This document shows, one piece after another, positions 6,081 through 61,372 of a DNA stretch of 64,000 nt. The notes under the pieces were generated by a model. The model saw only the letters and a program-made list of their open reading frames with translations, was not told where the DNA came from and did not search any database. The DNA is taken from assembly GCF_026151205.1 (NCBI RefSeq), contig NC_087081.1:16232837-16296836 (forward strand). Reading direction: 5' to 3'. The translations under genes were made by a program, and so were the position numbers. Each line of letters begins with the position of its first letter. Within the stretch, counting starts at the first letter, position 1. The DNA is from Bolinopsis microptera. Taxonomy: Eukaryota; Ctenophora; Tentaculata; Lobata; Bolinopsidae.

Positions 6081-6740
6081 CAGGGCTTGTATAGCGCAAG
6101 AGGAGGTGGTTTGTATGCAGCAGAACAATAATAACCTCACCAGGGCTTGTATAGCGCAAGAGGAGGTGGTTTGTATGCAGCAGAACAATAATAACCTCAC
6201 CAGGGCTTGTATAGCGCAAGAGGAGGTGGTTTGTATGCAGCAGAACAATAATAACCTCACCAGGGCTTGTATAGCGCAAGAGGAGGTGGTTTGTATGCAG
6301 CAGAACAATAATAACCTCACCAGGGCTTGTATAGCGCAAGAGGAGGTGGTTTGTATGCAGCAGAACAATAATAACCTCACCAGGGCTTGTATAGCGCAAG
6401 AGGAGGTGGTTTGTATGCAGCAGAACAATAATAACCTCACCAGGGCTTGTATAGCGCAAGAGGAGGTGGTTTGTATGCAGCAGAACAATAATAACCTCAC
6501 CAGGGCTTGTATAGCGCAAGAGGAGGTGGTTTGTATGCAGCAGAACAATAATAACCTCATCAGGGCTTGTATAGCGCAAGAGGAGGTGGTTTGTATGCAG
6601 CAGAACAATAATAACCTCACCAGGGCTTGTATAGCGCAAGAGGAGGTGGTTTGTATGCAGCAGAACAATAATAACCTCACCAGGGCTTGTATAGCGCAAG
6701 AGGAGGTGGTTTGTTTGCAGCAGAACAATAATAACCTCAT
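6081..6740. repeat. 60-bp minisatellite, 11 copies
   Basis: Eleven head-to-tail copies of a 60-bp unit are almost perfectly identical; single changes appear in the copies near 6560 and 6715 and at the right end. Because 60 is divisible by three and the unit lacks stops in several frames, long open frames arise on both strands. They are repeat artefacts with no splice context. Confidence 0.97.
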
Positions 6741-7811: not shown

Positions 7812-10800
7812 GGTCGCTCCAGTAAATTAGAAATCACAATGGTTGACACAGAAACAACACCAGTTCCAGAAGTTGCTGAAACTACCAAAGCCCAGGTAAA
7901 CCATACTTTTCTTTCTTGCAATATTTCTGCTATATTTGACAGATCTTTGAATCCTGTTAAAGGAAACAACTTAACTAACTGCCCAACCTCCCCAGGTTGA
8001 AGAACCAGTTGCTGAACCTGTAGTTAATGGGGATCACGTTGAATCAGAAGAGGAGAAGTTATCTGAATCTGAAGAGAAAGATAGTGCTGTGAAGGAGAGC
8101 GTGCCCGTTGAAGAAGCAGCCCCCGCAGAAGAAGCCGCTCCAGTAGAAGAAGCCGCTCCAGTAGAAGAAGCCGCTCCAGTAGAAGAAGCCGCTCCAGTAG
8201 AAGAAGCGGCACCTGTAGAAGAAGCCGCTCCAGTAGAAGAAGCAGCTCCAGTAGAAGAAGTAGCACCTGTAGAAGAAGCCGCTCCAGTAGAAGAAGCAAC
8301 TCCCGCTGTTGTGGAAGAAACGCCATCACCAGTGGAAGAGCCTGAAATTGCAGTAAGTAAAAAGTTTAGAGTTTGAACTTATGTGATGTTTTGTGTCGTG
8401 TAACGTGTTTGTGTGCAACTGTGCGCTTAAAGCAGCGCTGACCTTGGTGAACGCTTTCTGTAGTGCAGTGAATATTATAATTGTCACCTGCCTACCTAAT
8501 TGCATTGGGAATCAGTCCCCCCTTTAACCATTATGTCACTTCATTGCATCCCTAAAGTAGCTATCACCTACTGAGTACTGAGTGATCTTTCTCTCACATC
8601 TGTCAAAACACAACCCGCTCAAAACACAACCCCCTCAAAACATAAACTGGCTCCCCTCATGAGTTTGAAAGTCTTTTTCACAGTCTAAAGAAGAAGATCC
8701 AGTTCCTGAAGAACCGGCATCCGCAGAAGAACCTGTAGTAGAAGAACCTGCAGTAGAAGAACCTGTAGTTGACGAACCCGCAGTCACTAAAGAACCTGCA
8801 GCCATTGTAGAACCTGCAGCCGTCGAGGAACCTGCAGCTGTTGAAGAAACTGCAGCTGTTGAAGAACCTGCAGCTGTTGAGGAACCTGCAGCCGTCGAGG
8901 CACCTGCAGCTGTCGAGGAACCCGCAGCCGTCGAAGAACCAGCAGCCGTTGAGAAACCTGCAGCTGTCGAGGAACCTGCAGCTGTTGAGGCACCTGCAGC
9001 CGTCGAGGAACCTGCAGCTGTTGAAGAACCTGCAGCCGTCGAAGAACCAGCAGCTGTTGAAGAACCTGCAGCTGTTGAAGAACCTGCAGCTGTTGAAGAA
9101 CCGGCAGCTGTTGAAGAACCTGCAGCTGTTGAAGAACCGGCAGCCGTTGAAGAACCGGCAGCCGTTGTAGAACCTGCAACTGTTGAGGAACCTGCAGCTG
9201 TTGAGGAACCTGCAGCCGTCGAGGAACCAGCAGCCGTTGAGGAACCTGCAGCTGTCGAGGAACCCGCAGCCGTTGAGGAACCAGCAGCCGTCGAAGAACC
9301 TGCAGCTGTTGAAAAACCGGCAGCCGTTGAAGAACCTGCAGCTGTTGAGGAACCTGCAGCCGTTGAAGAACCTGCAGCCGTTGAAGAACCTGCAGCCGTT
9401 GAAGAACCTGCAGCCGTTGAAGAACCTGCAGCCGTTGAAGAACCTGCAGCCGTTGAAGAACCTGCAGCCGTCGAGGAACCCGCAGCTGTCGAGGAAGATG
9501 CAGCTGTCCAAGAACCTGCAGCCGTTGAAGAACCGGTAGATGCCTCCGTAGCAGCAGAAGTGGCTGCAGCTGCCGCCATAGTCGAGGAGGCGTTCAACAA
9601 GGAGGAGTCTCTGGAAGCCCCGGTAAGATTTCCGGGGAGCTGTTGAACCTTATGTAGCATTGCTATAATTTGAACCTTATGTAGCATTGCTATAATTTGA
9701 ACCTTATGTAGCATTGCTATAATTTGAACCTGTCGATCGGGCTAAAAAAATAAACTTAAGTTATTGGCCACATTCAGTCGTCTACATTTTTCACAAAATT
9801 CTTATTATTGTCAGTTTTTCATGTTCAGCTCAATCTTTTAAACCTTTCCTGCATGTTCCAAGCTGCACGTTCTTCCCATTTCTCTCTCAATTTCAGTCAG
9901 CACTGCTTTTGTTTTACACCAGCTCCATTTGGAACTAATTCAGATTGTTAGATTGGGTTAATTTTTGTTTAAATACGTTAGGCTGTGTTGAGTGTCTGAT
10001 TTTGCATGTCTTTGCTTTAAAACTTTACCCTAGGCAATATGCTTATGGAACATGTTATTTTGTTCAATTTAAGTTCTTATAAAAGAGATTATTGTTATTT
10101 TGAATGATAGCAGCATGATCTCATGATTTAACCATAAGTTCTACTGTCGCACAATATTATAATTTTAGTACTGTCAATATAAAATATTACGATTAATTTA
10201 AACTGTCGTCCGCCAGGCAGAAGAAGCTGCACCTGATGCTGCACCCTGCTGCTGAAGAGGCACCTGCTGAGGTAGCTGCCGAGGAAGAAACACCCAAAGA
10301 AGAAGAAAAGAAGCCAGAGTGTGAAACTCCTTCAAAAAAGAAGGGTCTTATGTCCAAGTAAGAACTCTCCTTTCACTCAAGATTGTGGATTGTGGAATCG
10401 TTGCCATTTTCAATTATCGTCTCGGAAATTTCAGGCCATTCATTTGAGATGTGCAAACGGCGATCATTCATGAGATTCGTGTCACTTTCTTATGTTTAAA
10501 GAATTAAACACTATTTACATTAATTTCAAATTAGTTCTGTAATCCAGAGAAGTAACAATCCCTTGCTACTGCAAGGAAGAGAGTTTTAATTCTCACAACT
10601 TTTTACAAATGCATCCTGTGTAGGCTGGGTCTGAAGTTCCCGAAGAAGAGAAGAAGGAAGTAGCTGCGGAGGAAGAGAAACCAGCCGAAGAGGAGGCAGC
10701 CGTTGAGGAGGAGGCTGAACCTGCTGCCGAACCTGCTGCTGAAGAGGTAGCTTTTAATTCTTAACAATTGTAGGGGGTTTTTAGAGTTGAACATATTAAG

Positions 10801-26980: not shown

Positions 26981-29470
26981 CCCCCCCCCCCCCCCCCCCC
27001 CTTAACAATGGTCAAAAAATAGTCCATTAACAATGTTATTGTTAATGGTCTGGCCCGGCGAGCACTTGCCATCGGGCCATTTCGAGAAGATTTTCGAGAA
27101 CATTTCGAGAAGAAAGCGGCGCGCGCTACTTCGAAGAAATTTAGACGAGTAACATCCGTCAATATTTTTATTTCAATCCTGCCTCATTTTGTATCCGGGA
27201 TACTATCCCTTACAATACGTAGCAAATTACTTGGGGATCCCAGGCTATTGTGTTCATAAACATGAATAGAGATTCGGCGGAATGACAGGCTGAGCACCGC
27301 CCGGTAAGTAGCAAATCGCGAATCTGCGAATCACCCTGGTCACTAATAGTAATTTATACTTCAACTTGGATAGTTGGATCAATCCATTTATTTACTTCGC
27401 AGGTAACTCTGCTTTCGAGGAATTTACCAACAAAAAAACTTTTGTATTAGAGACAAAGTTCGACAATTCAAAAGGATGTTTTAGCTACAAGGGCTAGGTC
27501 TGACGATCCGTTAATGTTATTTCAAATTGACTCTAAATGAATATTAATCGTTAATATTTTAACATGAACTGTTAAATTGCTGTCAACATTCTGTACAAAC
27601 TTCGTAAAAAACCCGGTATAAAAAGGTTGAAGATCATTTTTTATTACTAATGAAAAAATTATTAGGGAGCGTTCACATATAACGTCAGCAAGATTTTGCC
27701 CAATTTTACCCCCCCCCATCCCCCCTGTCAGCAACTGTCAGCATTGAGCGACCCCCTCCCCCCTAATGACGTCAGCATTTTCCAGACGGGGTTTAATGCT
27801 TGGGGAGAGGTCTTCAACTCAGTTCTTAGTTTAGGGTAATACTGTCAAAGGATCACATTTATCCACTGTTACACCTGAACAACATGATTTATATCGAAAC
27901 CACAATAGTCCAACTCAGGGAAGGCAGGGAGAATAGAAGTCGATTATGAAATTGATCATAGTCATTGCTCGCAGAGTTCGTGCCGCTGCTTAATGTTTAT
28001 CTAAAGAACCCACAAGTATTGACCGCGGATCATTTTCCCATTGATCATCCACCGTAAATACCTGTAATACTAATTATAAAGTCATCTTTACTACACGAGG
28101 ATAGTTTTCAATAAAATCTACCATTTTATCACATGAATTCTGTGACCTCATGTGCCTCTTCTTTTTTATAATTAAGTTCTGCCATGTTTGAAGTCTGGTG
28201 TGATTGTTTCACGAGAATTATTATCAGAAATTTCAGTTAAAAAATAACATGATCTGGAGTTAGAGATCACCACGTGCGGTTCCAGATCACTATTATACGC
28301 ACGTGCATTATCTCAATATAAAGGAGCTGTTGCTCCAGGTCTTTTTACCAGCTGCTGCACCACCTTCTGGTCTATTTTCTTAGGTTAATAATAATATTGA
28401 TGATTAGTGAAAGCTGAATCACCTTGGTGTGCAATATAATATTTATTGCAGTACGTTTATAAATTTTACCAGTATACCTACTGCACGATTCAACGTTTTG
28501 TTTTATCTTGGCTGATTATTTGATTTCTCGATACAAGAAAAGCCTCTAGCAATTTCAATAGTGAAATGTGAGTGAGGAGAGCCCTGTGTAGAGTGTTCGC
28601 GTATAAATAGCACGTACCTTATCGGCCATTTTAATGTCCGTTAAAATAAAGTCCGTTTACTAGTTATAAGGTCCGTTCAACTTCAAGTCAAAGTCTGTTG
28701 AATTTTTCCCACGAAAGTATTCCACTACGAACATATTTTCCAGGATATGACTACTTTTTAATTTCGGTAAATTCCAATTTCTACAATCGGACTAAATTAT
28801 ATCACCATTTTTACTGCTAACGACTGCTTTTTTATTTGTACTAGTGCGTTGTTCGTTTGATTAAATTCCTTCTCAAATAAACAGTTCATTAAACAAGCAC
28901 CTAGTTCAGGTTGAATTAAGTTTTACCTTACTTAAGAAAGACGAGTGGCAGCAAAAGAAATGTGGGCAGGTTCAATGATGATGATGTGTATAACAACAGG
29001 TCTTACTCACGGTCTAGGTAAACTACTGTACAAGTGATTTTGTAAAAATGTGTTTTAAATTTTAACAATATGCAAACAATTTTAAAATGATTAAGACTAA
29101 TGTATTAACCGAGTGAATAATTTCAGGAAATTCCCAGTACATGGAAGTGAACAACTTATTTCTGACCGAACTATCTGAAAATGGAACATTCAAATGTTAT
29201 CGAGAGGACAAATACTTCAAGATCCTGTCAAGCTATGAACTTGAAAACAAGGACAATCAGGGAGCACCTTTAAAAGCACACCGGGTGAGCCAAAAATGTT
29301 ATGATGACATCGGAACTGAGCTTGGGTCGTATCAGGCGTGTATTGTTAACGGCTATACTAAAGGTGGGTCCTGTGGTAAAGTTTGTTCTGATTATAATGA
29401 GAATCACTTGGTATGGCCAGTAGTTTTACCCCCAGAGACAATGTGTGATGGCGTAGAGGACTGTCAGGAT
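25901..29470. repeat. Tandem segmental duplication, left unit
   Basis: This 3570-bp unit runs from inside the left arm of the foldback element, through non-coding DNA, to residue 134 of the GPCR gene. The right unit (29471-32919) matches it almost base for base. At the junction, GPCR sequence GACTGTCAGGAT joins CTAGGACCGG from inside the foldback arm. That is what a direct tandem duplication with these two breakpoints produces. Confidence 0.93.
27048..27158. repeat. Dispersed repeat family C
   Basis: The core is GAGCACTTGCCATCGGGCCA, then GCGCGCTACTTCGAAGAAATTT-like sequence and GACGAGTAACAT. It is present here, in the duplicate at 30507-30617, and diverged at 37978-38085. Confidence 0.8.
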
Positions 29471-29575
29471 CTAGGACCGGTGACCGAACTTTTGAGGGGG
29501 TCCTGGACCCCAACCGCCAAACGGTGCCCGCGGGGCAGCCACGCCCATATTTGGTCCAAATTAGGCCCAATTTAG
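28960..29575 (+). pseudogene. Truncated 5' copy of the LDLa GPCR gene fused to foldback sequence
   Basis: Exon 1 (28960-29017) and the start of exon 2 (from 29127) match the intact gene, with at least one silent change (TTC/TTT near 29215). At 29470 the coding sequence breaks inside the first LDLa module, before its calcium-binding GSDE segment, and runs into foldback arm DNA for 35 further codons to a stop. If transcribed, it would give about 168 residues with a leader and no membrane domain. The upstream DNA is the same as for the intact gene, so expression is possible. More likely it is a duplication relic. Confidence 0.88.
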
Positions 29576-30447: not shown

Positions 30448-32919
30448 CCCCCCCCCCCCTTAACAATGGTCAAAAAATAGTCCATTAACAATGTTATTGT
30501 TAATGGTCTGGCCCGGCGAGCACTTGCCATCGGGCCATTTCGAGAAGATTTTCGAGAACATTTCGAGAAGAAAGCGGCGCGCGCTACTTCGAAGAAATTT
30601 AGACGAGTAACATCCGTCAATATTTTTATTTCAATCCTGCCTCATTTTGTATCCCTTACAATACGTAGCAAATTACTTGGGGATCCCAGGCTATTGTGTT
30701 CATAAACATGAATAGAGATTCGGCGGAATGACAGGCTGAGCACCGCCCGGTAAGTAGCAAATCGCGAATCTGCGAATCACCCTGGTCACTAATAGTAATT
30801 TATACTTCAACTTGGATAGTTGGATCAATCCATTTATTTACTTCGCAGGTAACTCTGCTTTCGAGGAATTTACCAAAAAAAAAACTTTTGTATTAGAGAC
30901 AAAGTTCGACAATTCAAAAGGATGTTTTAGCTACAAGGGCTAGGTCTGACGATCCGTTAATGTTATTTCAAATTGACTCTAAATGAATATTAATCGTTAA
31001 TATTTTAACATGAACTGTTAAATTGCTGTCAACATTCTGTACAAACTTCGTAAAAAACCCGGTATAAAAAGGTTGAAGATCATTTTTTATTACTAATGAA
31101 AAAATTATTAGGGAGCGTTCACATATAACGTCAGCAAGATTTTGCCCAATTTTACCCCCCCCCCCCCATCCCCCCTGTCAGCAACTGTCAGCATTGAGCG
31201 ACCCCCCTCCCCCTAATGACGTCAGCATTTTCCAGACGGGGTTTAATGCTTGGGGAGAGGTCTTCAACTCAGTTCTTAGTTTAGGGTAATACTGTCAAAG
31301 GATCACATTTATCCACTGTTACACCTGAACAACATGATTTATATCGAAACCACAATAGTCCAACTCAGGGAAGGCAGGGAGAATAGAAGTCGATTATGAA
31401 ATTGATCATAGTCATTGCTCGCAGAGTTCGTGCCGCTGCTTAATGTTTATCTAAAGAACCCACAAGTATTGACCGCGGATCATTTTCCCATTGATCATCC
31501 ACCGTAAATACCTGTAATACTAATTATAAAGTCATCTTTACTACACGAGGATAGTTTTCAATAAAATCTACCATTTTATCACATGAATTCTGTGACCTCA
31601 TGTGCCTCTTCTTTTTTATAATTAAGTTCTGCCATGTTTGAAGTCTGGTGTGATTGTTTCACGAGAATTATTATCAGAAATTTCAGTTAAAAAATAACAT
31701 GATCTGGAGTTAGAGATCACCACGTGCGGTTCCAGATCACTATTATACGCACGTGCATTATCTCAATATAAAGGAGCTGTTGCTCCAGGTCTTTTTACCA
31801 GCTGCTGCACCACCTTCTGGTCTATTTTCTTAGGTTAATAATAATATTGATGATTAGTGAAAGCTGAATCACCTTGGTGTGCAATATAATATTTATTGCA
31901 GTACGTTTATAAATTTTACCAGTATACCTACTGCACGATTCAACGTTTTGTTTTATCTTGGCTGATTATTTGATTTCTCGATACAAGAAAAGCCTCTAGC
32001 AATTTCAATAGTGAAATGTGAGTGAGGAGAGCCCTGTGTAGAGTGTTCGCGTATAATAGCACGTACCTTATCGGCCATTTTAATGTCCGTTAAAATAAAG
32101 TCCGTTTACTAGTTATAAGGTCCGTTCAACTTCAAGTCAAAGTCTGTTGAATTTTTCCCACGAAAGTATTCCACTACGAACATATTTTCCAGGATATGAC
32201 TACTTTTTAATTTCGGTAAATTCCAATTTCTACAATCGGACTAAATTATATCACCATTTTTACTGCTAACGACTGCTTTTTTATTTGTACTAGTGCGTTG
32301 TTCGTTTGATTAAATTCCTTCTCAAATAAACAGTTCATTAAACAAGCACCTAGTTCAGGTTGAATTAAGTTTTACCTTACTTAAGAAAGACGAGTGGCAG
32401 CAAAAGAAATGTGGGCAGGTTCAATGATGATGATGTGTATAACAACAGGTCTTACTCACGGTCTAGGTAAACTACTGTACAAGTGATTTTGTAAAAATGT
32501 GTTTTAAATTTTAACAATATGCAAACAATTTTAAAATGATTAAGACTAATGTATTAACCGAGTGAATAATTTCAGGAAATTCCCAGTACATGGAAGTGAA
32601 CAACTTATTTCTGACCGAACTATCTGAAAATGGAACATTCAAATGTTATCGAGAGGACAAATACTTTAAGATCCTGTCAAGCTATGAACTTGAAAACAAG
32701 GACAATCAGGGAGCACCTTTAAAAGCACACCGGGTGAGCCAAAAATGTTATGATGACATCGGAACTGAGCTTGGGTCGTATCAGGCGTGTATTGTTAACG
32801 GCTATACTAAAGGTGGGTCCTGTGGTAAAGTTTGTTCTGATTATAATGAGAATCACTTGGTATGGCCAGTAGTTTTACCCCCAGAGACAATGTGTGATGG
32901 CGTAGAGGACTGTCAGGAT
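29471..32919. repeat. Tandem segmental duplication, right unit
   Basis: This 3449-bp unit is 121 bp shorter than the left unit. About 98 bp are missing from the foldback loop (between the paired GATATTT context near 29923), 12 bp are missing near 30651 between TATCC repeats, and the C run is shorter. It contains the 5' flank, exon 1 and the start of exon 2 of the intact GPCR gene. Confidence 0.93.
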
Positions 32920-35900
32920 GGTTCGGACGAGGATAATTGTGGTGAAGATATTGCGGGGAGATACTGTGCTGCAGATTTCAGTCAACAGATTCCAAAGGAG
33001 TACCTGTGTGATGGGTCTGTACATTATTGCGTAAAAGACAGGCCAGAGATTAAAGATGAATCGGACTGGTGGTGCAACAATGGTAATAGGCCTGGTGCGG
33101 TCGAGAGGATCAAATGCCAAAACATGAAAGGTTTCTTGCATCCAGCAAAGTTCTGTGATGGTACTAACGACTGTGGAGATGCTTATAATTCTGATGATGG
33201 TCCTTATGATGAGTTAAGATGCAATTCTACCCAAAATGAGTCTTATCTGAATGCTGATGGTGGCAGGCTGTGTCAGGACAATGTGACAGGTGATATCAGA
33301 TATCTTTATCCTGAGCAGATCTGTGGTAATCCTAGAGTAACCACGGGTGCTGTTGAAACAGAGGATTTTCGGCCATGCTGGAAAAAGCTTGATCAAATAC
33401 ATTGCAACAAAGAACATACAAGTGTTCATGGCTTAAGATGTCTTCTCGAATATTATTTGGAAAAATACGTAACAGAGAACACACACGAGTATTTTGACCA
33501 TGAGTTACGAAACAGACTGTCAAATAATACCTATAACGAAGAACGAGAAGAAACCATAATATCAAAATACCTGCTCTGTGACGGTGATAGGGATTGCGAA
33601 AATGGTATCGATGAGAAATGTCAAGACCCAAATGAAATGATTGATAATAAAAACAAAAAGGTTAGCGACCAAAATGATATGAATAATATCGCTCGAACGT
33701 GTCTGATACATAGACATCACATTTGTGATGGCTACAGAGATTGTCTAGAAGGAGAAGATGAACTAGACAGTATTTGCGAGACTGACGATTGGCAGAAGCT
33801 GCCTGGGTGTGTGAGAGTAGGAGCCAGGAACTTCGCGGATAGCACCAAAACAAGTTTGATTCATGTAGATTGGATCAAGGATACTATCACAGATTGCAGA
33901 AATGGAGTAGACGAAGAAGATAGAACACAGATTTGTCCGGTCACTTTTACGAATGGAGACCGGCAGCTAAGAAGTTTCAAAGGCGAATGTCCCGAAGTGT
34001 ACAAATGTACAGATGAAATGGAGAATCGGGACAGCTACGTTGAAATCTTTGACCTATGCCAGTCAAGTCTAGACACTTGTGAACGCCAAAACAGAATCTG
34101 TCAGGCAGCAAAGAGAAGACCATCCATAGAAACAACGCCAATCAAAACTTCAAGGGTAGAAGTAGAAGGTATCATCGCCACTAAACATGTGGCCCCTTGT
34201 TTACCTGGTTTGATGAAATATAGACAGTTCAACTGCACGACCAGTGATCAGCATATCTTTGGATCTAAGAATAGGACCTCTGGAATAATGAACACAACTT
34301 GGGTCTATGAAGACAAGGTGCGTGATTGTTCTTATTACTTCGGAGAGACGTTTCTTTTCCTGACATGCAACGATCTTTGTTTTTCAAGGGAAGAATATGC
34401 CCGTTATTGGTACTATTTACATCGGCCATATATTCAACCTCGGAAATGTCCTTTTAAACAACCAAAATACCAAGATGATCTCTTTAGAGACTCTAGAGAA
34501 ACTTATCCAGTAGCAAGAATCACAGTTGAAGACGAGTTTAAAAGTGGAGATATTAAATTGAGATTGGTTGCTAAAATTAAGGACGGTTATCAGCTAAAAT
34601 GGTTTGGATGTGATAATGGCAGAGTGGTTCTTTTGAACGAAGTTTGTAATTTGGTAAACGATTGCGGAGATAACTCTGACGAATTGTACTGCTCTAATTC
34701 AGTGAGCTGCCGAGTTGCAACTGGTTATAATTATGATTCGGATTTCTCAAAAGTATCAAGAATACCACTATCATCGTTCAATGATGGAAAAGTCAATTGC
34801 AAAATAGTAAATGATTATAGTTCTAGGATGAATGACGAGTGTACCTCTCCATGGCTTTCTTTTCTTCTGGGTGAATACTCGGGAAACACCTACACATTTG
34901 CGATTGCCTTTGGTGTGCTGGCAACGGCTATAAATTCTTTTGTCATAGCAAAGAATATTTGGTCTTTGCGGAAAACCACAATGAAGTCGGTGTTATTTGG
35001 AGACACTATATATATTCTCATGATATCTGTTGGGGACTTTTGCATAGGTGTCTATCTTTTATTGTTAATAAAGAACCACTCGAGTTTCGGAACTAAATAC
35101 TGTTCTGAAAAATTTCGCTGGCTCTCATCGAACACGTGTAATTTCTTGGGAGCCCTTAGCACTTTTGGTTCGCAGATTTCACTGCTCTCGATGACTGTCA
35201 TGAGTATTTTGCGAGCAAGAAATCTCTCCAAATCACTTTCGTTTCGTTTTTCGAGACGACTTTTGGCAGTCTACATCATTTTGGCATTGGCAGTTGTAAT
35301 TCTGTCTGTTGCAATAGCGGTAACACCTCTCCTGGATATTTTCGAAGATTACTTCTTGAACGGACAAGTGTATGGAGATTCATACCAGCATCCGAAAGAG
35401 CAAATAAAAATATCTTTTCTCCTTGGACAGCAAACCAAGCGGGACCTTGTCAGTGTTATTGATGCTCATTACGGCTCAACAATCCAAAAGAAACTACTCC
35501 AAAATGGAGAAGGCTTAAGATGGAGTGAAATCAGGCGTCTCTTTGAAGGCATGTTCACAGGATTTTGGAGGAATAAAGATAGTGAAATTTCCGGAATCCC
35601 CTTTGGAAGAGTTGGATTTTATGGAAGTAGTGCAGTCTGTCTCTTTAAATACTTCGTCACCAAAGATGATCCTCAGCATATGTTCTCGATAGCAATATTG
35701 GGGCTGAATTTGGCTTGTTTCGTGATCATCACAGCATCCTACTTGAAAATTCTGCACCAGACCACCAAGTCTAGTCAAGCTGTAGCCGGAGCCAGGGCCA
35801 ACAAATCCATTTTGCTCCAGACAAAGATATCGATGATAATCCTCTCAGATGCAGTATGCTGGCTGCCCTTCATTACCTACGCTTTTCTTCACTATACCGA

Positions 35901-36267
35901 GGTTGAAAATGCAGAGAAGCACTATCTTTTCTTCTCCGTCATCCTTCTACCTGTAAACTCAGTTGTCAACCCAATCATCTACCACTACAACCATTCATAC
36001 GTCAAACAGAAGGGCAGGGAGGTCTTGGCGAGGGTCCGTTCCAGTGATTGTTATTTGGGCTCCGTTTTCTTCCTATCTGAACTTCTCACCAGCACCGTAA
36101 CTTTATTATCAGGTTATGACATCCGATCCACGATCCAACCGATTCTAAAAAGAGTAAATCCTCATTTGGTCTCAACCGTAGTGAGATATAAAGTTGAGAA
36201 CTCTCAAGTTGAAATCGAAGACACTGACATGAAGGAGGATTCTCTCGTTGAAATCGAATGTGATTAA
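32409..36267 (+). CDS. LDLa-repeat class A G protein-coupled receptor
   Basis: Exon 1 (32409-32466) encodes a short hydrophobic, Met-rich leader. Exon 2 (32576-36267) encodes the rest, about 1249 residues in total. The ectodomain of about 785 residues is cysteine-rich and has LDL receptor class A modules, clearest around residues 126-141 (CDGVEDCQDGSDEDNC), 150-190, 200-235, 348-369, 394-420 and 698-726. Seven membrane segments follow from about residue 790. Class A marks are a TM2 Asp (SVGDFCIGVYLL), CWLP in TM6 and NPIIY in TM7 near residue 1150. The DRY position at the end of TM3 reads ILRARN, so the acidic-Arg-Tyr motif is absent. The layout recalls relaxin-type LGR receptors and the snail receptor GRL101, but I see no leucine-rich repeats. 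Ligand unknown. AATAAA signals lie at about 36549 and 36580. Confidence 0.92.
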
Positions 36268-40099: not shown

Positions 40100-41681
40100 T
40101 CAGTTCCCGGCTCCAGTTTTACTCAAATGTTTGATAACATCGACCCAGTCCCAACCCCTCGGCTTGTCGTCCGCATCTATGTTGCCGTATTTGTCGTAAA
40201 AACGTCTTTTTTGACCTTTCGTCATGCCTTTAGTTGAAGCAAGTTTTTCCTTTTCCTTCTTCTCTAAAGCGATGGCTTCCTGACAAAGACAAAAATGATC
40301 AATTACAAAATCAACGGTAGCTATAACACAAGCTAAACAGCATAATTTTGCCACACGTTGTGTCTCATTGACATTAATATTATCACGCGCGGCCGGTAAA
40401 CAGTAAATGGACACGTGTGGAAAATAACGCTGTACTTTATTACGGATGCAAACAGTGAGCACCCAGTAATCATGATTAACTACTTAGACTAATTAGAAAC
40501 CTTCTCCTCTCGCGTTACGACGTTTTCGTTTTTAACCAGCGCTCTAATTTCCTCTAGATTATCAGTCACATAGTTGATAATGTTGAAAGTCATCGCCATT
40601 CCTGACCAGTCATCGTACTGAGAACGAATCTTACCCAGGATCTTTACTTTCTCGTGTGGCTGCAGAATAGAACACTGTTAACTAACACTGTTAACTAAAT
40701 ATTTACCTAATGAACACTGTTAACTTTACGTAAGGGACCTTGCTCGCACCAGTAACTGCACGTTGGTAGTCTTATTACAGTTACACGGTACAGTAAAACC
40801 CCGATTTATCGCGACTGTTTCCTTTCCCCCGCGATAAATTGAGGTTTTACTGTAGTACGCGATAAATTGAGGTTTTACTGTAGTACGAGGGTCCGTTTTA
40901 TGTTTATCACATAGAAAGAGAACTGAATTTAATATGCACCGTCAGGAGTAAGAACTAACCTTAATATGTGAGTCAGGAGTAAGAACTAACCTTAATATGT
41001 GAGTCAGGAGTAAGCACTAACCTTAATATGTGAGTCAGGAGTAAGCACTAGCCTTAATATGTGAGTCAGGAGTAAGCACTAACTTTAATATGTGAGTCAG
41101 GAGTAAGCACTAACCTTAATATGTGAGTCAGGAGTAAGCACTAACCTTAATATGTGAGTCAGGAGTAAGCACTAACCTTAATATGTGAGTCAGGAGTAAG
41201 CACTAACCTTAATATGTGAGTCAGGAGTAAGCACTAACCTTAATATGTGAGTCAGGAGTAAGCACTAACCTTAATATGTGAGTTGAAGAAGCTGTTAAGA
41301 TCTACCACAGCATTCTCGGACTCAGGGTACTTTTTTGGCCACGTTATCTGAAAATAGAAGATGTTAGATTTCATCCCATTACCGCTAATACTATGTAATG
41401 TCAGCAAACCCATCCCATTACCTCTAATACTATGTAATATCAGCAAACCCAACAGATAAAAATAAATAGAGCATTCAAGAAGGGGGGGGGGGGGGGGGGG
41501 GGGGGGGGGGAGGGGGGGGAGGGGGAGGGGAGGGGGGTACCTGTATCATAATACTCTTTAGTTCATTCTCCTCACTGATGAACTTGTAACAGTACACTGT
41601 GTCTTTAATCTGCTTGAAGTTGGTGTCGTCCTCGTATATTGAGAGTAAAACTTCCTGCTCATCGGCCTGGTCATCATTCAT
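40100..41681 (-). CDS. RWDD4: RWD domain-containing protein 4
   Basis: Four exons, read on the minus strand: 41681-41541, 41347-41270, 40659-40501 and 40279-40100. They encode 185 residues, close to the family's usual 188. The N-terminal part is an RWD fold with the start EQEVLLSIYEDD and the WPKKYPE segment where the YPxxxP-type turn lies. The C-terminal tail has the family signature RGWDWVDVIKHLSKTG after a Lys-rich helix. All borders are phase 0. The biochemical role of RWDD4 is not established. The start is preceded by TTTTCAAG three bases before the ATG, an apparent splice acceptor. A G-rich tract begins four bases inside intron 1, and intron 2 is largely an array built on its own donor site. 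ZMAT2 lies 527 bp upstream on the same strand. Confidence 0.95.
40931..41290 (-). repeat. 31-bp minisatellite copied from the RWDD4 exon 2 donor site, about 11 copies
   Basis: On the minus strand the unit is CTCACATATTAAG|GTTAGTGC plus TTACTCCTGA. The copy at the exon edge contains the real border: the last 13 coding bases of exon 2 and the donor GTTAGT. All the other copies carry the same AAG|GTTAGT or a near variant inside the intron. Confidence 0.93.
41482..41537. repeat. G-rich tract next to the RWDD4 intron 1 donor
   Basis: Long G runs separated by single A residues. On the coding strand the donor GTACC is followed directly by C runs. Confidence 0.93.
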
Positions 41682-42208
41682 GATCTTGAAAATTAGTTGA
41701 CTTGAAAATGAGCTGTGAGTAACTGGTTGGTTAATTAATTGTATTAATCGAGGAATTATAATCCTTCGATAAGGTTTGTCTGGGAAAATCCAGAACTTTT
41801 TCTTCCAACTCTTGGATTTATCATTAAATTTAGAACAACTGTATTTTTATATTTTTCACCGCCAACAAAAACAAAACTCGGATATCTCATGTTGGTATCA
41901 TAAGAGCGAATTGTTGTAAATATTCAGATAACTTCATTCACATGTGAGTCTATTAACATGATTAGGTAAAAAGGAAAATCTCGACTGGTTAAAGATTAAA
42001 TATGGTACTTGTTCGTTGCAGTCCCAACCGATTAAACTGGTCATGAAATTATATTCCTCTGTTGAGATGATTGTTAAACGCATAAATAACACCAGATTAG
42101 CATAATTAACACCATATTAGCATAATTAACACCAGATTAGCTTTAACATGAAGTGCTCGACACTTGTACCATGTACGTTTCTGATCAAGGCATTAAATTG
42201 TTTCCCGG

Positions 42209-44517
42209 CTACTTTCCAAAGCCGCCGAACCCCATTATTGCAGCAAGTTCAGGATCCAGTTCCTCCTCCCCCGCCCCGGCCACGGCCCGCTTCTTGTCCT
42301 TCTTTCGCTGGCGTTTCAGTGCTCTCTGCCGCTCCTCCTCCTCTTGTCGCTCCTGAGCTCGAGCTTCAAGGTCGTAGTCCTCCGCCTAGGTGGGGGACAT
42401 TTCATTATTATGGAATACAAATAAATAAGTAAACTGAATGTTACAGTGCATTCTGAATGTTACAGTGCATTCTGAATGAGAAGTAAAAACAGAAATATAA
42501 ACTTACTTTATTTTTCTCATCGTCCTCCCTCTTTCGTTTATTTTTATCAAATCTGGCTCGGACCTGCTCTAAAGTTGATCTCTCTACTTTCATCGACATT
42601 CCTAAATTTCGTTGATCTGAAAAATAATTTATAAAAATAGTAAAATCATTGGTGGTCTTTGGTGCTGTCAATTAAGAGTTCATCAGAATAAACTACGACA
42701 GACATGATCCACAAGCCACTTGATGACAGCTTTTACTCCACATACTCTAGCAAGATCGAGTATTTGTTTGCTGTAGCCTCAGTGTTTGGGCACGATATTT
42801 AGTAAACTATTATTAATGTATTCGCCATTCGGTCACTAATTGGTGACATGATCTGATCACCGTGGGACCCCTGATAATTGGGTCGTGCAGCCATGAAAAC
42901 AATCAGGATTCCCAGAAACTTACGTTTTTTGCCGTTGATATGATCCAGATAGTTGATGGAATCTTTAACAACACAATCACAAACTTTGCAGTAATAGCCT
43001 CCTTGCATTGCGCTGGGACTGTCTTTTGTTACCACCATAGTCTTCCCCAACTTGGAGTCTAGATCGACCTGCAATTATAGGACTTTAAAAAAAATACTTT
43101 CAACACTACTATATAACAAATAATTCGAGCATGAATACGAAGTTGTTACTTTGAAACGTCGTTTATCCTAACAGTGCAGTATCATTTGTCGCAGTAATAA
43201 GAATAATCAGAAATTATCATCTGCAATCATAGTACTGGAGAGTGGATCATGCGGGCACAATAACCCGGTTAACAGATCGTAATCAATAAGAATGTAATAG
43301 CTTTCGGTCAGTTAAATTAAACTAGTTACGTTATTTCATACCTTGTGGTCTCTAGGTCTAAGAAGTTCTCTTTTAACCTTCCTCTCCGATACGATTTCTG
43401 GTTCTGAAACACATGATATATAAACTTCACAATAATAAACTCGTGATAAATAAACTTCACAATATTAAACACGTGATACATAAACTTCACAATAACAAAA
43501 ATGTTGACCGCTTCTACGAGTTAAATTGAACGCCTGCATCGCCTACATCGGCAATCTATAATACATCTTGCTTGGCAGAGGATATCTGGTATTTAAAATT
43601 AATGCGTAACACGATATACAACCGACATTGAAGAATTTTCCTAATTGTTACAGTGTGGTTATGAGCTAGACGTTTTCTCACCATTTTCTGCGACAAGTCG
43701 GTCTTTCGCTTTCTGAGCATATTCATCTTTATCCCAAGTTTTCCTGTACGTCGTCATATCTATATGATTGTTATTTGTACAGCAAGTTATCAGTAATATC
43801 GTTAACTAGTTTGTATAGCACATGGAAGTGTAGCACAGTTGGGGAATAGTTGAGAGATCGGATCAAATTAAACAGAAAGCGCGTAAAGCAAAATGCTGAA
43901 ATTGTGTGGTTTCTGTATAAAGCTGTATTTGCGCGTAACACGTTATAGTGCGCGGCTCAATGTTGCTTCTGCTGAATTGTAAGTTACTGTTTTTCAGGAA
44001 TTATTATGGTTTATTAGTGATTTTGTGGATAAATGCAACAGCCAGCAACAGTCAAGAGTCGTCTTAAAGTATACTCTAGGACTCTAGCCCCTGCAATGAA
44101 ATTTTAGCCGGGTACTTGAGATATTGGCCTGTTTCCAAAACAGTACTGTGTATAGAAACGTACATATCTAGTTGAGCCAGCCAGAGGTTATCAATAAAAC
44201 AAATAGTTACAAATTAAACAAACGTAGAATAAATTTGAATATTTCACCGCAATCACGTCACTAAACATTAAAGTATTCCCCTGTGACGTCACACCACGTG
44301 TTATGACGTCACGTTAATATGAGCTTAACAGTTAGCTGCATTCATTTGAACATTACCGAAATCTAAAAAGACAATAAACCGATTTTCGCAAAGACTTGGT
44401 CTCCAAAGCGACTGTAACATTGACTTCAGAATGCGATAAAAAGATTAAAATAAAAAATAACACAATATATGAAAAGTCAGAAATATACTAACGGGGCCGG
44501 TTCGAACTAAAGGCCAT
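42209..44517 (-). CDS. ZMAT2: Zinc finger matrin-type protein 2 (Snu23 family, spliceosome)
   Basis: Six exons on the minus strand: 44517-44493, 43759-43682, 43403-43342, 43068-42924, 42616-42507 and 42385-42209. They encode 198 residues, against 199 in vertebrates. Visible parts are a KTWDKDEY start region, a matrin-type zinc finger ([11 protein letters not shown], then [10 protein letters not shown]), the conserved [16 protein letters not shown] segment, a charged helix and a C-terminal MGFGGFGK. The family (yeast Snu23) is a nuclear protein of the spliceosomal B complex. It sits near the U6/5' splice site helix and leaves before activation. The ATG directly follows a TTCCCTTTTAG acceptor. 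Thirty-base repeats end at the acceptor of the exon at 43403. The MAP4K stop codon lies 490 bp upstream and RWDD4 follows downstream. Confidence 0.96.
43404..43500 (-). repeat. 30-bp repeats ending at a ZMAT2 acceptor site
   Basis: Three copies of a unit with TTATTGTGAAGTTTAT and ATCACGTGTTT. The copy at the exon edge ends in GTGTTTCAG, the real acceptor. The two others end in GTTTAAT and GTTTATT, so they keep the upstream part but not the AG. Confidence 0.85.
44283..44314. promoter_or_regulatory. TGACGTCA-CACGTG-TGACGTCA cluster
   Basis: Two TGACGTCAC sites flank a CCACGTGT site within ZMAT2 intron 1. It is one of six such clusters in the window. Confidence 0.35.
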
Positions 44518-45007
44518 CTAAAAGGGAAGAAATTGAAATGTCATTATCAGACACTTGCTCTGAATTGAGATGCTTTCAATATGGAGTTATAAAGTGAATA
44601 ATTCTGTAACAAATAAGCATGTGCAAATCACTTGTACAACGATTCAAGCAACAAATGTTGGTTGTTCAATGTTCATTAGCAGTACAATAACCATCACACT
44701 TTAATAACATATTCATATCATGTCACATTAAACAATTGGGACAAGGAGACGGTAAGCTTATACTAAAAAGCTTTTAAAGTATTTGATCGGTTAACCCACA
44801 AGTAGTAGTTTCTACAAATGAAATGTTTTTTGAAAGCTCTCAAATAGTTTACACCATCATCCTTATCCAAACAACATAGGGAATCTTTAAAAGAACCAAG
44901 TTTATCATTTGACGGTAAAGTACGCCTTGAACTATAGACATATCATCACATCTAATTAGCTGTTTATAGGTTGATTAACCTGTCAATTAGCTAATCATAT
45001 AATCAAT

Positions 45008-61372
<16,365 letters not shown>

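Follow-up and report, generated by a model that had tools for sequence, protein, structure and literature searches.

Introduction

In amphioxus, minisatellite-like tandem duplications of 5′ or 3′ exon-intron borders have been described as mirages, and the two reports state that many of the duplicated AG and GT signals are retained and that regular splicing is undisturbed (PMC3087553; PMC3902484). The genes named there as mirage carriers are Adh3, those for the globins BflGb6 and BflGb9, and troponin C, together with PGBD5, the repeats of which were likened to mirages (PMC3087553; PMC3902484); the unit sizes given are about 150-160 bp for globin and 10-72 bp for Adh3 (PMC3087553). In the open-licence ctenophore literature on minisatellites, tandem repeats and introns, no report of such arrays was found. 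Several splice donors are reportedly provided by a minisatellite in the human gene IFI6 (6-16, G1P3), and these repeated donors are said to be used in transcripts. Tandem repeats at exon-intron borders, as in the AGGT duplication associated with Rogers, are likewise said to be able to create introns. In duplicated human genes, internal tandem repeats located at exon-intron borders are reported to be linked to new introns (PMC2812944). In this study, we analysed intronic arrays of similar build in three genes of a ctenophore, with respect to their position, the splice-site copies they carry and the introns of other genes.

Results

Tandem arrays in the introns of three genes

The window, the whole stretch of 64,000 nucleotides analysed herein (C10:16232837-16296836), was taken from a genome of 264.65 Mb in 232 contigs; the positions below are counted from its first letter. 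Three minus-strand gene models were assembled manually on the basis of GT-AG borders and reading frame, and each was open throughout. The RWDD4-like gene (40100-41681) consists of four coding exons (41681-41541, 41347-41270, 40659-40501 and 40279-40100) and carries an RWD domain (Pfam, E 1.1e-13). The ZMAT2 (Snu23-like) gene (42209-43757) has five coding exons with zinc finger matches in Pfam, and the MAP4K-like gene (45008-59846) was modelled for its last 16 coding exons, including Pkinase (E 1.9e-63) and CNH (E 4.4e-36) domains of Pfam. These names are our presumptive assignments from the Pfam domains and from human sequences; the RWDD4-like protein gave no match to solved structures at E 0.001. 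Upstream of the exon at 59846, the MAP4K-like gene has 4 additional introns, some of them past the right end of the window, which were located by splice-aware alignment with a human kinase domain.

The 22 introns of the three gene models total 14,670 bp, with a median of 331 bp. Tandem Repeats Finder (TRF) detected 29 arrays in these introns, occupying 35.7% of the intron bases, after exclusion before testing of the array at 56348-56404, which is a coding repeat of MAP4K-like exon 8. Tandem repeat coverage over 264 kb was 15.9%; in another ctenophore, Hormiphora, 13% of the genome is reported to be marked by the same program (PMC8527503).

Repeats of other kinds were also observed in the window. 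A 325-aa ORF at 8669-9646 (plus strand) is made mostly of an 18-bp minisatellite (about 46 copies, encoding EEPAAV-like repeats), and an array of 60 bp x 11 at 6081-6739, with copies 99% alike, is open in three frames (229-247 aa). Between about 26000 and 36264 (plus strand), a segment is tandemly duplicated with a spacing of about 3.45 kb, a truncated copy (29117-29572) being followed by an intact single-exon ORF of 1,233 aa, receptor-like, at 32566-36264 (plus strand). MAP4K-like intron 13 (46274-49388, minus strand) contains an element whose inverted ends, GGGCATATTTCAAAAC, are located at 49327 and 46946; the element is nested in, and splits, a minisatellite of the 11-bp unit GTAACACTTCT, and includes an ORF at 48422-47766.

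Arrays across and close to exon borders

Four of the arrays in the 22 introns span an exon border, three at donors and one at an acceptor, each including 4-18 exon bases. All lie on the minus strand and were delimited by TRF, with copies 92-98% identical within arrays. The array of RWDD4-like intron 2 (40941-41283, 31 bp x 11) has a unit made of the exon end CTCACATATTAAG and the donor GTTAGT; it overlaps by 14 nt with the exon end, which is at 41270 and is followed by GT, and its 11 donor copies comprise 10 GT and 1 GC. In MAP4K-like intron 14 (45660-46128, 40 bp x 11.7), the unit carries TTAG followed by GTGTGT, that is, the donor plus 4 exon bases, and the array overlaps by 4 nt with the exon end at 46125, all 12 donor copies being GT. 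The array of MAP4K-like intron 6 (57407-57593, about 46 bp x 4) carries CCTCCACCTCCTCCAA followed by GTATGT, the donor plus 18 exon bases, with an 18-nt overlap with the exon end at 57576 and GT in all 4 copies. The single acceptor array, in MAP4K-like intron 10 (50553-51481, 41 bp x 22.5), carries CCTCAG followed by TGAACCCCT, the acceptor plus 9 exon bases; it overlaps by 9 nt with the exon start at 50561 and holds 23 acceptor copies, all AG. A preliminary description of this DNA had stated that the units of arrays in at least four introns carry the splice site of the gene itself with neighbouring exon bases, and these four arrays agree with it. Its attribution of such arrays to three genes holds for two, the RWDD4-like and the MAP4K-like, as the ZMAT2 array merely ends 3 nt short of an acceptor.

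Five additional arrays, again on the minus strand in TRF delimitation, have an end 3 nt from a border. Three of these are at an acceptor, each ending 3 nt short of it: MAP4K-like intron 9 (51917-52144), MAP4K-like intron 1 (59457-59548) and ZMAT2 intron 1 (43407-43499). The other two begin 3 nt past a donor, namely the array of MAP4K-like intron 5 (58126-58186) and the C-rich run of RWDD4-like intron 1 (41481-41537). The preliminary description had counted at least four more arrays ending exactly at an acceptor; what we found is the three above, in addition to which 6 further arrays end 11-26 nt away from an acceptor. For introns shorter than 1.3 kb, the edges within 26 nt of the border, with positive values lying in the exon, are +18, +14, +4, -3, -3, -14 and -15 on the donor side, and +9, -3, -3, -3, -11, -20, -23, -24 and -24 on the acceptor side.

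Array placement compared with chance

The observed positions were compared with those of arrays placed randomly, each in its own intron, with 10, 20 or 30 exon bases of overhang allowed (own-intron null). Spanning arrays, 4 of 29, were then expected at 1.65, 3.0 and 4.1 (p 0.08, 0.35 and 0.62, respectively), a result decided by the choice of overhang, since at zero overhang spanning is impossible by construction. When the arrays were collapsed and then randomly dropped back into the introns (collapsed-intron null), the expectation was 2.1-4.8 (p 0.13-0.76). Under a laxer model in which an array may fall in any intron, p for spanning was 0.009, 0.09 and 0.23 at 10, 20 and 30 nt of overhang, and 0.017 for the 18 arrays with a score of at least 100 alone. 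With introns so short (median 331 bp) and arrays taking up 36% of their sequence, the number of spanning arrays is close to chance within individual introns. Border-spanning thus occurs at the rate expected of short, repeat-filled introns, and the assertion that chance placement would not favour exon borders fails for spanning, 4 of 29 being near the random 1.65-4.8.

The closeness of array edges to borders gave a different result. Edges within 3 nt were found for 9 of the 29 arrays, against 2.3-4.7 expected in the own-intron null (p 0.0002-0.02) and 2.9-5.4 in the collapsed-intron null (p 0.0002-0.05); within 10 nt the count was again 9, against 4.2-6.4 in the latter (p 0.008-0.14). Within 26 nt, there were 17 of 29, compared with 6.1-7.9 expected (own-intron null, p at most 0.00015) and 7.1-8.7 (collapsed-intron null, p at most 0.0001), an excess of about twofold. 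Among arrays in introns shorter than 1.3 kb, 16 of 21 were within 26 nt of a border, against 6.8-8.3 expected. This closeness in the window genes is due to the stronger arrays: of those with a score of at least 100, 8/18 lie within 3 nt and 13/18 within 26 nt, compared with 0/9 and 3/9 of the weaker ones. In these genes, array edges near borders exceed random placement and are only partly explained by the null models; to this extent the preliminary reading, that the arrays gather at borders beyond chance, was borne out.

Decoy sites and their predicted products

The four spanning arrays contain 46 decoy sites, of which 45 retain GT or AG. From position -3 to +6, 17 of the 24 donor decoys are the same as the real donor (8/10, 3/3 and 6/11 by array). 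The predicted product was read for the use of each decoy. With any of the 24 donor decoys, translation would run into a stop inside the first unit added. A premature stop is likewise predicted for 21 of the 22 acceptor decoys, the remaining one (50684, +123 nt) being in frame. The predicted protein is therefore broken by 45 of 46 decoys, and the normal open protein is obtained from the exon-adjacent copy only; decoys that truncate the protein could not act as spare sites. When the decoy dinucleotides were compared with the other columns of the unit in the arrays of RWDD4-like intron 2 and MAP4K-like introns 14 and 10, GT was changed once in 11 copies in one donor array and not at all in 12 copies in the other (p 0.35), and AG was unchanged in 22 copies (p 0.06). 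The GT and AG columns show no significantly better conservation than the rest of the unit, as fits neutral copies. Judged from these predicted products, the arrays would have no function as a backup of splicing.

Introns of other genes and a genome-wide motif count

The comparison set consisted of 35 introns, 19 of dynein, 12 of CTR9 and the 4 at the 5′ side of the MAP4K-like gene, the last being from the gene of the finding itself. The dynein introns were chosen by hand from L030, L035, L039 and L040, leaving out the low-scoring loci L041, L043, L044, L047 and L048, the overlapping loci L045 and L046, and, in L039 and L040, introns that were weak or lay at an end. No border-spanning array was found in these 35 introns, for which 0.3-0.9 were expected (in a run of 34 introns including two spurious CTR9 introns), and one array lay within 26 nt of a border, at 5 nt from a CTR9 donor. 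The 35 introns hold 26 arrays, and power is low because only 5 of them are in introns shorter than 5 kb. The difference in spanning introns, 4/22 in the window genes vs 0/35 elsewhere (p 0.02), is to be expected because the window genes were picked for standing out. The 19 dynein introns are small (123-503 nt) and without arrays.

The dynein heavy chain genes of this genome (G000) differ in structure, several being nearly intron-free (open frames of 1,670-3,703 codons) and others having introns every few hundred bases. The CTR9 gene (L049 to L010) has one intron of 21.5 kb with long ORFs that resemble a retroelement and other genes; of the remaining 11 introns, nine measure 135-433 bp and the other two 1.0 and 2.6 kb. 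Other sources of introns were tried and set aside. An ab initio exon predictor for a wider sample was dropped for gross over-prediction, the two strands of 274 kb yielding 1,048 and 1,073 introns, with known introns exactly recovered in 14/22 and 5/12 cases. The 4 predicted introns of an AKR gene were left out as unreliable, and a PF00069 kinase search (127 of 769 candidates scored, on contigs C1-C13 plus one small contig) was not used for introns, its matches being mostly intron-free.

Three perfect donors AGGTAAGT at minisatellite spacing were also counted genome-wide, overlapping matches rather than arrays being counted. This gave 1,212 matches vs 11 for the reversed motif; among the approximately 100 triple-donor matches listed, there were about 7 arrays. 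The apparent hundred-fold excess of donor arrays was rejected, since 254 and 1,426 matches were obtained with two more control motifs of equal composition, indicating that motifs vary as widely. Over 264 kb, units with a strong donor numbered 10 of 70 vs 6.25 expected (s.d. 2.2). On this coarse test, with three control motifs and matches instead of arrays, perfect-donor arrays are unexceptional genome-wide.

Discussion

The arrays are probably minisatellites of the mirage type, that is, ordinary intronic arrays of a repeat-rich ctenophore genome, some of which were seeded across an exon border and are tolerated with no backup function. The first duplication could arise by slippage or unequal exchange at any point of a short intron, and one falling on a border would survive because one copy always stays at the exon edge; the extra copies would accrue on the intron side and drift neutrally. 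The spliceosome would pass over the decoys, the exon-side site being favoured by exon definition and not by the letters of the site, as we infer because identity with the real donor at all nine bases was found in 17 of 24 donor decoys. Several results count against this neutral model. The edges within 26 nt (17/29, and 16/21 in introns shorter than 1.3 kb) are both left unexplained by it, spanning is above expectation at the tightest overhang when arrays are free among introns (p 0.009), the genes differ in spanning introns (4/22 vs 0/35, p 0.02), and the reversed-motif control, taken alone (1,212 vs 11), favours donors.

The edge positions, 9/29 within 3 nt and 17/29 within 26 nt, are what would be seen if arrays arose mainly at splice junctions, through R-loops, pausing or short homology at borders under transcription, for instance, with edges commoner at borders than elsewhere in introns, and the concentration of the effect in the stronger arrays (8/18 with a score of at least 100 vs 0/9 of the weaker within 3 nt) points the same way. 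We nevertheless hold such a focus to be unlikely, considering that the region was chosen for looking unusual, that the pattern had no repeat in the 35 other introns, where, however, no more than 5 of 26 arrays are in introns shorter than 5 kb, that the excess is in large part made up of edges 3-26 nt inside introns rather than across the border, and that perfect-donor arrays are unexceptional genome-wide. The duplication process starting at splice junctions that the preliminary description had proposed is not supported by the 0/35 in other introns, at low power, nor by the genome-wide count. Its general form, in which minisatellites arise preferentially at the exon borders of transcribed introns, transcription or splicing seeding the duplication and the intron lengthening from an anchor at the border, we regard as rather unlikely. 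A growth of arrays within very short ancestral introns, until all but the essential donor and acceptor signals is filled, would agree with the 56-674 nt of non-array sequence in the 14 array-bearing introns shorter than 1.3 kb, with the small, array-free introns of dynein, and with the heaping of acceptor-side edges at -3 and at -20 to -24, taken as limits of the acceptor signal. This growth is quite improbable as the explanation, because the collapsed-intron null already accounts for it and yet expects only 7-9 of the 29 arrays within 26 nt.

Selection keeping the copies as redundant or regulatory splice sites, the other proposal of the preliminary description, could be read from the GT or AG kept in 45/46 decoys and from the AG unchanged in 22 aligned acceptor copies (p 0.06 under the change rate of the array itself). 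It appears very improbable to us: 45/46 decoys would truncate the protein at a premature stop and would be unable to replace a lost site, and conservation of the decoy dinucleotides does not significantly exceed that of other columns. A role of the decoys as a poison-splicing switch giving unproductive isoforms is conceivable.

With as many as 23 nearly identical splice sites in a row and the normal protein predicted from a single one of them, the arrays offer natural tests of the exon-side choice made by the spliceosome. If true genome-wide, the clustering at borders would tie splicing or transcription to the birth of tandem repeats. In the available portions of the two reports, mirages are recorded only from lancelets (PMC3087553; PMC3902484), and the ctenophore case suggests that genomes rich in minisatellites generally produce mirages as a by-product.

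As for the known systems, the arrays described here resemble intron change by tandem duplication in having repeats at exon-intron borders, and differ from intron-creating duplication in that the introns concerned are taken to be old already. As in IFI6, several splice donors are supplied by a minisatellite; in contrast to the donors reportedly used in IFI6 transcripts, use of any of the 24 donor decoys here is predicted to hit a stop before the first unit ends. From the amphioxus mirages the present arrays differ in copy number and unit, with 4-23 copies, units of 31-46 bp and 4-18 exon bases, the amphioxus units being 10-72 or about 150-160 bp; the host is probably of another phylum. They are like mirages in forming tandem minisatellite-like repeats (31 x 11, 40 x 11.7, about 46 x 4 and 41 x 22.5 by TRF), in units that combine intron with exon bases (14, 4, 18 and 9), in the duplication of both border types (three donors and one acceptor), and in the GT or AG kept in 45/46 decoys. 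The preliminary description knew of no described system of such a kind, but in mirages exon-intron borders are duplicated in tandem (PMC3087553; PMC3902484), and the splice-border arrays of this ctenophore, as read from their sequences, would belong to that already known kind.
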